Positions 23,038 through 25,776 of a stretch of 64,000 nt of DNA are shown here, piece after piece. Every line of letters begins with the position of its first letter. The first letter of the stretch is position 1. Below the pieces are notes generated by a model. It had not been told where the DNA came from. It ran no database searches and saw nothing but the letters and a program-made list of their open reading frames with translations. The translations under genes and the position numbers were made by a program. The stretch is from assembly GCA_017473265.1 (NCBI GenBank), contig JAFULQ010000021.1, positions 1-64,000 on the forward strand. Direction: 5' to 3'. Origin of the DNA: Erysipelotrichaceae bacterium. Lineage in GTDB: Bacteria; Bacillota_I; Bacilli_A; Erysipelotrichales; Erysipelotrichaceae.

Positions 23038-23809
23038 ATCCAAAAATTCGTTTCATTATACTTTCTTCCATCTTCGGTAATACAATATCTTCACCCAATA
23101 AACGCTTTGCCATTGCATAATAACATTTATATGTAAAAGAATACTGATCGAGTACTCGTAAAACCCCTCGATTATTCGCACTCATTTGCAATTCATCTTC
23201 ATAAATCATTCCACAAACATCCATCCCTAACCACTGTACAACATCTTTAATTTTTAATGATATCCCCTTCGATACTAATTTCGGATTGATACGATTAATC
23301 ACAATTTGAATATTATGTATATCTTCTTTCCACAACAATCCCATCACACGATCTCCATCCTGAATACTGGAAGTATCCAATTGCACAACAACAATCGCTT
23401 CTGATGCCAATTTTGTTACAAAAGAAAAACCTCGATCAATACCAGCAGGACAATCATATAATATGATATCGAATAGTGGTTCCATTGCTTGCATAACCCG
23501 TTTCAAATCCTCAAAACGAAATGAATATATATCCAATGATTTACACGCTGGCAGTAAAAACAAATTCGCCTGATGTTTATCTTTAATTAATAATTTATGT
23601 AATTCACACTTACCCTCAATCGCATCCTTTATATCATAAATCACACGATTTTCTAAACCCATAATTACATCTAGATTTCTTAGGCCTAAATCCATATCTA
23701 CCAAACAAACTTTCAATCCCATTTGTGCAAACATCATACCCAAATTTGCACATATTGTGCTTTTACCTACACCCCCTTTACCAGAGGTAATCATAATTGA
23801 TCTTGCCAT
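23036..23809 (-). CDS. minD: Septum site-determining ATPase MinD
   Basis: About 257 residues. It starts MARSIMITSGKGGVGKST with the deviant Walker A lysine of ParA/MinD ATPases. VDMDLGLRNLDVIMGLENR and YDCPAGIDRGF are the expected MinD segments. The short C-terminus ending MEESIMKRIFG can form the amphipathic membrane-targeting helix. MinD recruits MinC to block division near poles. Start 23809 chosen: AAAGGA is upstream and MARS aligns with the family. It overlaps minC by 19 nt. The longer frame has no site. Confidence 0.94.
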   Translation of the reverse strand: MARSIMITSGKGGVGKSTICANLGMMFAQMGLKVCLVDMDLGLRNLDVIMGLENRVIYDIKDAIEGKCELHKLLIKDKHQANLFLLPACKSLDIYSFRFEDLKRVMQAMEPLFDIILYDCPAGIDRGFSFVTKLASEAIVVVQLDTSSIQDGDRVMGLLWKEDIHNIQIVINRINPKLVSKGISLKIKDVVQWLGMDVCGMIYEDELQMSANNRGVLRVLDQYSFTYKCYYAMAKRLLGEDIVLPKMEESIMKRIFG

Positions 23810-24333
23810 ATCCCTTTTTCCTTTCGATATTGATATTGGAGTACACATTTATCATATTCTTGAATATATTGCATTGGCATATCATTCATTTTCAAACGCA
23901 ATTTATAAATAGATAATGCATATAATTTTGATTTCTTACTATAAAATTCAATTTCACCTGAAACTTTTCCAAATACATACATATTTCCATGATACATAGT
24001 AATTGAAGTATGAAGTGGTATATCATTCAATATTAATACATCATGATAAAAGTCATAATGCCCTATACCAATCGAATCCAACGTTTCAATCATAGCATTT
24101 TGAAACGTATAAGAAATAGAAGCTACCAACATTTCACACGTATTTACAAGTGTAATTAATGATAACACTTCATGACTGTCTATCATCTTTTCTAAAAATA
24201 TATGTATCATTTCTACTTGTAAACCCTGTAAAGGTTGTAATCGTTGACCCAATTCTTCCATTGGTAAACTTCTATTACTATTTTTAATATAGACCTGTAA
24301 TTGATCTTGTCTTCCACGAATTTCAACATACAT
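23791..24333 (-). CDS. minC: Septum site-determining protein MinC (short)
   Basis: This 180-residue protein is directly upstream of and overlapping minD. The C-terminal half shows MinC beta-helix turns: DVLILNDIPLHTSITMYHGN, MYVFGKVSGEIEF and KSKLYALSIYKLRL. MinC binds MinD and stops FtsZ polymerising at wrong sites. It is shorter than the usual 220-230 residues and the N-terminal domain is poorly conserved, so the call leans on the minD partner. Promoter candidate TTGACA-16-TATGGT lies upstream. Confidence 0.85.
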   Translation of the reverse strand: MYVEIRGRQDQLQVYIKNSNRSLPMEELGQRLQPLQGLQVEMIHIFLEKMIDSHEVLSLITLVNTCEMLVASISYTFQNAMIETLDSIGIGHYDFYHDVLILNDIPLHTSITMYHGNMYVFGKVSGEIEFYSKKSKLYALSIYKLRLKMNDMPMQYIQEYDKCVLQYQYRKEKGIWQDQL

Positions 24334-24414: not shown

Positions 24415-25080
24415 TTACTCTGCCGCATTTGATAATAAACCCTGTTTACGAAAACTAAACCAACTATGTGTCGATACAATAATATGATCCATAATCGGGA
24501 TATGCATAATTTTAGAAACATCTTCTAATAACATTGTTACCTTATGATCTTCACTAGATGGAATGACATCTTGACTAGGATGATTATGTACTAAGATAAT
24601 TTTACTGGCACTACGTGTAAAGGCTTCTTTAAAGATTTCCCTTGGATGAATATTTGCACTATCCAATCCACCAACAAAAATCGTTTTATATCCAATAATA
24701 TGATTTTTAACATTCAAAAATACAACGAAAAAATGCTCTTGTTCTAAATGACCCAATTCAATTTTTAACCAATCAACTAAACTTTGAGGTGTTGTTATTA
24801 CATTTACATTTTTCGTGTATTCAAAACTACATCTACGTACCAATTCAAAAACCGTCATCAATTCAATAGCTTTAGCCTCTTTGATACCCTTAAACTCCAT
24901 CCAATCCTGTAATTTCATATTTGGCAATTGCCCAATACCGCCCTTTTTATGTATAACCTCATCCGCTAGTTCTAAACTACTTTTTCCTTGGTAGCCAGTG
25001 CGCAATAAAATAGCTAACAATTCTCGATTTGATAAAGTTTCCACACCATATAAAATTACTTTTTCTCTTGGACGCTCCAT
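24415..25080 (-). CDS. radC: RadC family JAMM/MPN protein
   Basis: This 221-residue protein has an N-terminal helix-hairpin-helix-like region (LSNRELLAILLRTGYQG, MEFKGIKEAKAIEL). The C-terminal JAMM domain has HNHPSQDVIPSSEDH and the closing aspartate in MDHIIV. The His-x-His...Asp zinc set is complete. The family's role is unsettled, and a DNA-repair role is not supported in all species. It stands between the SPOR gene and minC as in Bacillus, but mreBCD is absent. It follows the SPOR gene by 14 nt, so co-transcription is likely. Confidence 0.93.
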   Translation of the reverse strand: MERPREKVILYGVETLSNRELLAILLRTGYQGKSSLELADEVIHKKGGIGQLPNMKLQDWMEFKGIKEAKAIELMTVFELVRRCSFEYTKNVNVITTPQSLVDWLKIELGHLEQEHFFVVFLNVKNHIIGYKTIFVGGLDSANIHPREIFKEAFTRSASKIILVHNHPSQDVIPSSEDHKVTMLLEDVSKIMHIPIMDHIIVSTHSWFSFRKQGLLSNAAE

Positions 25081-25094
25081 TTCAGGAATTTCTC

Positions 25095-25502
25095 TTATTT
25101 GGATGCCATCACCTCCAATAATAAATCATAAGATTGTTGTTCAATCGATGAAATAATCATTTCATCGGTTATTACGACTTGTTTTTCATATGAACCATAT
25201 CCTTTATTCAATAGAACCTCTTTCATATCATCCTTACTTTGTATATCCATGCTAATACCAGTGATTACATAATACATATCCTTATTTTCATAATACATCG
25301 CTTCCACATTATCACTTTTTAGTTGATCTACTCTTTTTTTAGCATTATCTTCATTACCAAACACTCCTACTTGTAAATAGTAAACAATAGCACTCGATGT
25401 ACTTGTAGAAATTGTTTGATCATCCACAAACACTTTCATATATACAAATGAAAATAGTAAAGTAAGAGATAATGCCATAACTGTAACAAAAGAACGTTTC
25501 AT
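25095..25502 (-). CDS. SPOR-domain membrane protein (SpoIIB-like)
   Basis: About 135 residues. One N-terminal membrane helix (about 4-24) is followed by an extracytoplasmic SPOR domain: YYLQVGVFGNEDNAKKRVDQ and AMYYENKDMYYVITG. SPOR domains bind denuded peptidoglycan at septa. B. subtilis spoIIB lies near radC-minCD, so this may be the local SpoIIB counterpart, though it is much shorter than SpoIIB. The start is the ATG at 25502 with AGGAGGGG 5 nt upstream. A CCTAATC/GATTAGG hairpin overlaps that ribosome site. Confidence 0.72.
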   Translation of the reverse strand: MKRSFVTVMALSLTLLFSFVYMKVFVDDQTISTSTSSAIVYYLQVGVFGNEDNAKKRVDQLKSDNVEAMYYENKDMYYVITGISMDIQSKDDMKEVLLNKGYGSYEKQVVITDEMIISSIEQQSYDLLLEVMASK

Positions 25503-25512
25503 AAACACCCCT

Positions 25513-25535
25513 CCTAATCTACTATATTGATTAGG
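25513..25535 (-). promoter_or_regulatory. Hairpin overlapping the SPOR gene ribosome site
   Basis: On the minus strand CCTAATC (25535-25529) pairs with GATTAGG (25519-25513). The 3' arm covers the first bases of AGGAGGGG (25515-25508). It could hide the site, or be a weak attenuator between the peptide gene and the SPOR gene. Confidence 0.45.
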
Positions 25536-25549
25536 AAAAACAAATAGAC

Positions 25550-25720
25550 TTACTTACTCCATTGAAATGAAAAACCACTAAAACTCAAACGACCAGATTT
25601 TGATGTTAAAATCTTGTAAATGCCACTAGCACCAGCAGCCAACATCAAATACACCAACACCAATTGCGGTGTAAGCGCACCTCCTTTCATTTCTTGCATT
25701 TGTAAACTAGTAAGCTTCAT
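25550..25720 (-). CDS. Small double-glycine leader peptide (bacteriocin- or pheromone-like)
   Basis: A 56-residue frame with a very strong ribosome site (GAGGGGGTG, 5 nt before ATG at 25720). The peptide begins MKLTSLQMQEMKGG, a hydrophilic leader ending in Gly-Gly as in peptides cut by C39-type exporters. The next part, ALTPQLVLVYLMLAAGASGI, is hydrophobic. The tail is basic and Ser/Phe-rich and ends SFQWSK. The predicted mature peptide is 42 residues with no cysteine. It lies 47 nt before the SPOR gene on the same strand. No C39 exporter or immunity gene is beside it. Alternatively it is a small membrane protein. Confidence 0.65.
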   Translation of the reverse strand: MKLTSLQMQEMKGGALTPQLVLVYLMLAAGASGIYKILTSKSGRLSFSGFSFQWSK

Positions 25721-25776
25721 TTTTTCACCCCCTCACTATACTTATTCTCCAAAAATTCCAGTTTTTCCTAAAAAAA

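Follow-up and report, generated by a model that had tools for sequence, protein, structure and literature searches.

A double-glycine peptide encoded beside radC in Erysipelotrichaceae and its probable maturation by a C39 peptidase lacking a transporter

We have analysed a stretch of 64,000 nucleotides from an Erysipelotrichaceae bacterium (assembly GCA_017473265.1, contig JAFULQ010000021.1, positions 1 to 64,000), hereafter the window, which contains on its minus strand a short gene (25550-25720) encoding the peptide MKLTSLQMQEMKGGALTPQLVLVYLMLAAGASGIYKILTSKSGRLSFSGFSFQWSK. An earlier note, made from the letters of the sequence, had described in this 56-residue frame a double-glycine leader, a hydrophobic stretch and a basic, aromatic tail, and all three features were borne out. 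The peptide gene is followed by genes encoding a SPOR-domain protein, RadC, a protein of 180 amino acids (aa), MinD, an M23 protein and an M50 protein, and it is preceded by genes encoding a Nif3-like protein and a HAD protein. The note had described the surroundings correctly, both in finding no C39 exporter or immunity gene near the peptide and in placing a SPOR gene on the same strand, 47 nucleotides (nt) past the peptide stop codon. The features of the locus are collected in Table 1. The peptide as a whole did not match any entry of Pfam or NCBIfam or any solved structure.

Table 1. Features of the peptide locus in the window. AF2, AlphaFold2; dN/dS, ratio of non-synonymous to synonymous substitution rates; G003, nearest relative with the full locus; g1, a genus of the comparison.
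Feature	Position	Strand	Evidence
Precursor gene, 56 codons (stop codon included in the interval)	25550..25720	(-)	Conserved in relatives; dN/dS 0.074 vs G003
Shine-Dalgarno-like GAGGGGGTG, 5 nt 5' of ATG, good	25726..25734	(-)	Sequence
Leader MKLTSLQMQEMKGG, residues 1-14, predicted cut after Gly14	25679..25720	(-)	C39 rule match; conservation in 43 distinct relatives; AF2 disorder
Core, residues 15-56, predicted 42-aa mature peptide	25553..25678	(-)	Leaderless homologues start here; dN/dS 0.048
Predicted membrane helix, residues 18-39	25604..25669	(-)	AF2 helix 18-39; best 19-residue hydropathy window at residue 20
Predicted C-terminal beta-hairpin, residues 42-55, invariant Gly43 and Trp54	25556..25597	(-)	AF2 strands 42-47 and 50-55; invariant columns
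47-nt spacer, peptide stop to SPOR gene	25503..25549	(-)	Comparison with G003
Small SPOR-domain protein gene, ATG at 25502; neighbour in part of the order	25095..25502	(-)	Pfam SPOR E 1.2e-6; synteny
radC, constant downstream neighbour across the class	24415..25080	(-)	Pfam 5.4e-40; synteny
Protein of 180 aa; in g1 its gene lies between radC and minD	23791..24333	(-)	No Pfam match; holds the relatives' minC position

A search with the single sequence matched the peptide in 25 of 60 relatives, and with a profile built from 29 members, matches were obtained in 102 of the 295 genomes of the order, that is, in nearly all those of the second family of the order (f2) and in about 60 genomes of the window's own family (f1). 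Class-wide, it is also present in f8 and f19, which lie elsewhere in the class. Between the genome of the window (G000) and its near twin G003 (JAFZDT010000044.1, a water-buffalo gut Erysipelotrichaceae assembly), the gene has undergone 4 non-synonymous as against 11 synonymous changes, a dN/dS of 0.074, with values of 0.165 for the leader, 0.048 for the core and 0.039 for the neighbouring radC. The gene is under purifying selection, and a chance reading frame is ruled out by the matches and the dN/dS value together. The earlier note had proposed to look for the frame in related genomes and to compare substitution rates, and both analyses spoke for a real, constrained gene, whose frame is conserved across f1, f2, f8 and f19. 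Four residues of the peptide are invariant, i.e., Lys36, Ser40, Gly43 and Trp54. The matches found in f16 (G445 and G463) lie outside the valS-radC setting described below and were excluded as probably unrelated leader peptides.

The site of the gene is constant in all the f1 and f2 loci examined and in nearly all those of f8 and f19, and searches of plasmids and phages found no copy of the peptide. Inheritance of the family is vertical, its site is fixed and it is not mobile, and the zero plasmid and phage matches together with the constant synteny rule out a mobile bacteriocin. Some genera carry more than one peptide at the locus. In the f2 genera g38 and g35 (L037, L043, L049, L116 and the g35 loci), two to four double-glycine peptides are encoded next to one another, a second type of the form MKELPVSSQ..VSGG...SITR being among them, and in the leaderless genus g26 two different peptides are found together.

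The substrates of C39 peptidases carry hydrophobic residues at positions -4, -7 and -12 and Gly-Gly (or Gly-Ala/Ser) at -2/-1 (PMC10885120). The leader of the window, MKLTSLQMQEMKGG followed by Ala, has Leu at -12, Met at -7, Met at -4 and Gly at -2 and -1, and thus agrees with this rule at every position. The same layout holds in the 43 distinct leader-bearing peptides of f2, g1, g24 and g13, with Leu at -12 and Gly at -2 in all 43, Gly at -1 in 42 and a hydrophobic residue at -4 in 95%, position -7 being mostly Gln in f2. In addition, the leaders of several relatives weakly match NCBIfam double-glycine models, the best match being TIGR03949 (3.2e-5). Judged by its residues, the double-glycine leader is genuine, and by its sequence the peptide qualifies as a C39 substrate.

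The earlier note had also suggested looking for a C39 exporter elsewhere in the genome. The Pfam C39 model (PF03412, E<1e-4) found no match in G000-G003, a full protein combining C39 with an ATP-binding cassette (C39-ABC) in nearly every f2 genome, and short C39 frames of 113-141 aa in some f1 genomes, all of them directly upstream of ybeY and mostly behind phoH. To conclude that G000 is devoid of any C39 would be wrong, since the stand-alone form is too diverged to be picked up by PF03412 at E 1e-4; it was found upstream of ybeY and then by profile. In G000 this is a protein of 111 aa (contig 24, 59230-59565) that begins with MNCGIYCLKEYLKL and is encoded between phoH and ybeY, unlinked to the peptide gene. 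Its relatives are also present in G002, G003 and G026, and G013 carries a stand-alone C39 opposite an antisense frame. The catalytic triad C3/H67/D82, aligned with solved C39 domains, is invariant in 13 stand-alone members and intact in G000, and the profile of the stand-alone form matches the C39 structures 6mpz (1.6e-5), PCAT1 4ry2 (8.7e-4) and ComA 3k8u (2.5e-3). From its triad and profile, the 111-aa protein can be assigned as a C39 peptidase that falls below the Pfam cut-off, and it is not a peptidase-containing ABC transporter (PCAT). Thus, the proposed search revealed no C39-ABC exporter in G000 but an unlinked peptidase free of any transporter.

The content of the ybeY site differs by lineage, being C39-ABC, C39 with a membrane domain, C39 alone, or nothing. 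In f2, a C39-ABC protein is encoded directly before ybeY (C39 4.2e-33, ABC_tran 1.3e-23). In f8 and f19, the C39 protein has 370-396 aa, with a membrane part and no ATPase domain, and it lies directly upstream of ybeY in seven of the eight loci inspected; proteins of this kind stand before ybeY, with no energy source, at L279, L280, L282, L285, L286, L293 and L294. Four loci of f12 (L306, L307, L309 and L312) show a linked arrangement, in which a C39-ABC protein of about 690 aa is accompanied by one or two short double-glycine leader peptides and, in most of them, by a membrane protein of about 140 aa, near rpsU/yqeY-type genes in at least some. This linked system may be the ancestral form of the ybeY-site peptidase.

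The presence of the leader and that of the peptidase go together. All 15 genomes of the order set that have a stand-alone C39 carry a leader-bearing peptide. Counted by genus in f1, leaving out g5, whose leader is unclear, the six leader-bearing genera all have the peptidase and the 11 leaderless ones have none, either at ybeY or by profile. When the f1 genomes are counted with the local loci included, 17 of the 21 leader-bearing ones have a stand-alone C39, the four without it being 79-89% complete, and none of about 40 leaderless genomes has one. All f2 genomes with the peptide have a C39 except G104 (69% complete), and it is a C39-ABC at ybeY where checked, while the 27 matches tested from f8, f19 and f16 all have a C39. 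The Fisher test of leader against peptidase gives 8e-5 by genera and 1e-11 by genomes, the latter value being inflated by relatedness.

At least 11 f1 genera encode the peptide without any leader. Counted back from the conserved Lys, their start Met is 19-22 residues away, and the Gly of the cut site in the leader-bearing peptides is 22 residues away. The leaderless Met is thus at the predicted cut position, so that these lineages translate directly what would be the cut product. This start codon at the predicted cut site is the strongest qualitative point for the pairing of leader and peptidase. The earlier note had held that lack of conservation of the leader in relatives would refute it; the leader is indeed missing in part of f1, but the pattern tracks the loss of the peptidase.

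Taken together, the conservation, the synteny, the leader motif, the peptidase triad and the co-variation of leader and peptidase, all of them shown by computation, make it probable that the peptide of the window spans the membrane once, is masked by its leader and is matured by a C39 peptidase that has no transporter. Its cutting, insertion and topology are inferred. The 56-codon gene would code for a small membrane peptide, made constitutively and in precursor form, and the stand-alone C39 would bind the leader residues Leu-12, Met-7 and Met-4 for a cut after Gly14. The 42-residue product would then insert as one membrane helix followed by a short C-terminal beta-hairpin. The tail after the helix has four positively charged residues and none that is negative, and by the positive-inside rule this would place it on the cytoplasmic side. 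No ATP-driven export would take place in the lineage of the window, and the leader might serve for masking or timing, the hydrophobic core being held in a soluble or inactive state up to the cut. In the AF2 model, the leader is disordered and the core forms a helix and two strands (Table 1), with a predicted template modelling score (pTM) of 0.33 and a predicted local distance difference test (pLDDT) of about 73-82 in the core.

Several observations weigh against this proposal. The cut site reads GK, GS, GL, GM or GR in g60, g23 and g11 despite their stand-alone C39, and GE in G046 of f2, which suggests either that the cut site is loose or that the peptidase serves something else. The peptidase of G000 scores 17.1 bits against a Pfam gathering cut-off of 22, a cut-off that its orthologues in g13, g23, g60 and g11 exceed. 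The AF2 model was obtained from a single sequence (mean pLDDT 70, with the low pTM given above). The radC tree needs only two well-supported, at most three, joint losses of leader and peptidase, and thus the Fisher values are not to be taken at face value and do not amount to a statistical proof. Moreover, other C39-ABC proteins, 719-759 aa in length, occur in two leaderless genomes, G108 and G133. Finally, a TIGR01847 search found no other double-glycine leaders in G000, but this model is short (15 positions) and weak, so that other leader-bearing peptides of G000, and with them further substrates of the peptidase, may have been missed.

The earlier note had seen in this layout that of class II bacteriocins and secreted signal peptides, in which case the leader would be cut and the 42-mer exported by a PCAT or another exporter, as a bacteriocin or a pheromone. 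The authentic double-glycine leader fits this idea, the f2 partner at ybeY is a full C39-ABC with its ABC_tran domain, which makes export plausible in f2, and the peptide clusters of g35 and g38 also agree with it. However, no C39-ABC was found in G000-G003 (a non-C39 exporter was not searched for in G000), f1 has a bare C39, the f8/f19 partner lacks the ATPase domain, the leaderless versions of at least 11 f1 genera could not use the export route, and the site is fixed and vertically inherited, with no plasmid or phage copies found. Neither a linked C39-ABC or immunity gene nor a mobile or strain-variable distribution, as expected of class II bacteriocin clusters, was observed. We therefore regard secretion as unlikely, and the original interpretation was borne out only in part.

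It might also be argued that the leader and the peptidase are two old features that the same clades lost together by accident on two or three occasions, and that the C39 acts on another substrate. The small number of joint losses on the radC tree is what such a coincidence would require, but it would leave the leaderless start codons at the predicted cut site without a reason, the pairing recurs in three C39 architectures and four families, and the TIGR01847 search revealed no competing leader in G000. An accidental pairing thus seems improbable. That the peptide is never cut in the lineage of the window, remaining a full-length membrane peptide whose leader is an inherited remnant doubling as an N-terminal tail, would agree with the loose cut site in g60, g23 and g11, with the divergence of the peptidase in g1 and with the leaderless forms, which show that the leader is dispensable, but it seems unlikely given the intact catalytic triad, the joint disappearance of leader and peptidase, and some constraint on the leader in g1 (the dN/dS of 0.165 covers 14 codons and few sites).

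As for the genomic address, the constant neighbours of the peptide are valS and, above all, radC, which is found downstream in nearly every locus reaching far enough, a small SPOR-type gene intervening in some cases. In most f2 genera the order is valS, peptide, radC, mreC, mreD-like, minC and minD, and Pfam confirmed ValS, MreC and MinC in G048. In most f8 and f19 loci the order, with gene names read from sequence and not from Pfam, is valS-peptide-radC-rplU-prp-rpmA-obg, and neither mre nor min genes were found there, so that the division-gene setting is only local. G000 has Spo0A, but many carriers of the peptide in f8, f19, g23, g25, g10 and g59 and some in f2 lack it, so that sporulation is not the common thread either and a sporulation-specific role is ruled out. 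The link to division or sporulation genes proposed in the earlier note is therefore no more than a local one.

In the window, the 180-aa protein is probably a diverged MinC, and RadC retains a JAMM-like motif, HNHPS...SSED, as read from the sequence. In the spacer between the peptide and the SPOR gene, 40 of the 47 nt are identical between G000 and G003, compared with a difference of about 30% at synonymous sites, and an inverted repeat (CCTAATC/GATTAGG) touches the ribosome site of the SPOR gene. This opens the possibility of a hairpin that controls translation; the same hairpin is not kept in G002.

On balance, we lean towards the view that the peptide and its peptidase belong to a housekeeping branch of the double-glycine/C39 systems, made up of valS-peptide-radC and an unlinked phoH/rpsU-C39-ybeY, co-inherited across at least four families. 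The peptidase would have shed its ATPase and then its membrane part, a direction of stepwise loss that we infer, several lineages would have dropped peptidase and leader, and the job would be a core one, linked to the envelope or to RadC, rather than warfare or signalling. From the constant adjacency, one may guess at a joint action of the mature peptide with RadC or with adjacent envelope machinery. It seems that a large group of gut bacteria has turned a cutting system of the secretion type into a fixed household pathway.

C39 peptidases and double-glycine leaders are taken as marks of secretion, and genome mining calls such peptides bacteriocins. Here, both would be found with a household peptide that is a fixed part of the genome and is served by a peptidase without its former pump, and thus bacteriocins should not be named from leaders alone. 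The natural series of C39-ABC, C39-membrane, C39 alone and none, the last with leaderless peptides, offers a way to ask what the leader does without export. In addition, radC, widespread but of unsettled function, gains a constant small partner. In the literature searched, no paper was found that brings these elements together.

Among the known systems, those of the PCAT or AMS (ABC transporter maturation and secretion) type, such as bacteriocins, ComC/ComA and LahA/LahT, share with the present one the leader with hydrophobic residues at -4, -7 (here Met) and -12 plus the double glycine, the Cys-His-Asp C39 and, in f2, a full C39-ABC protein at the same ybeY locus. They differ in that the G000 peptidase has no transporter and is unlinked to the peptide, the pair is fixed in the chromosome, and relatives that lost the peptidase have leaderless derivatives. 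The lactobin A/cerein 7B family (TIGR03949) and Bacteriocin_IIc (PF10439) resemble the peptide in its short hydrophobic core and in the weak leader scores of several relatives (3.2e-5 and 0.15, respectively), but its core, with the predicted helix and beta-hairpin and the invariant Lys, Ser, Gly and Trp, is unmatched, and it is vertically inherited next to radC without immunity or transporter genes. The nearest functional precedent is HetC of Nostoc, a C39-ABC exporter required for heterocyst differentiation (PMC10986499), i.e., a C39 protein that serves the physiology of its producer and not killing; HetC keeps its ABC part and requires the ATPase, whereas here the ABC part is missing and a probable substrate has been identified. 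A C39 domain can work without a transporter, as found for the excised domain LahT150 (PMC10885120), but LahT150 is a laboratory truncation, whereas the stand-alone form described here is a natural gene.
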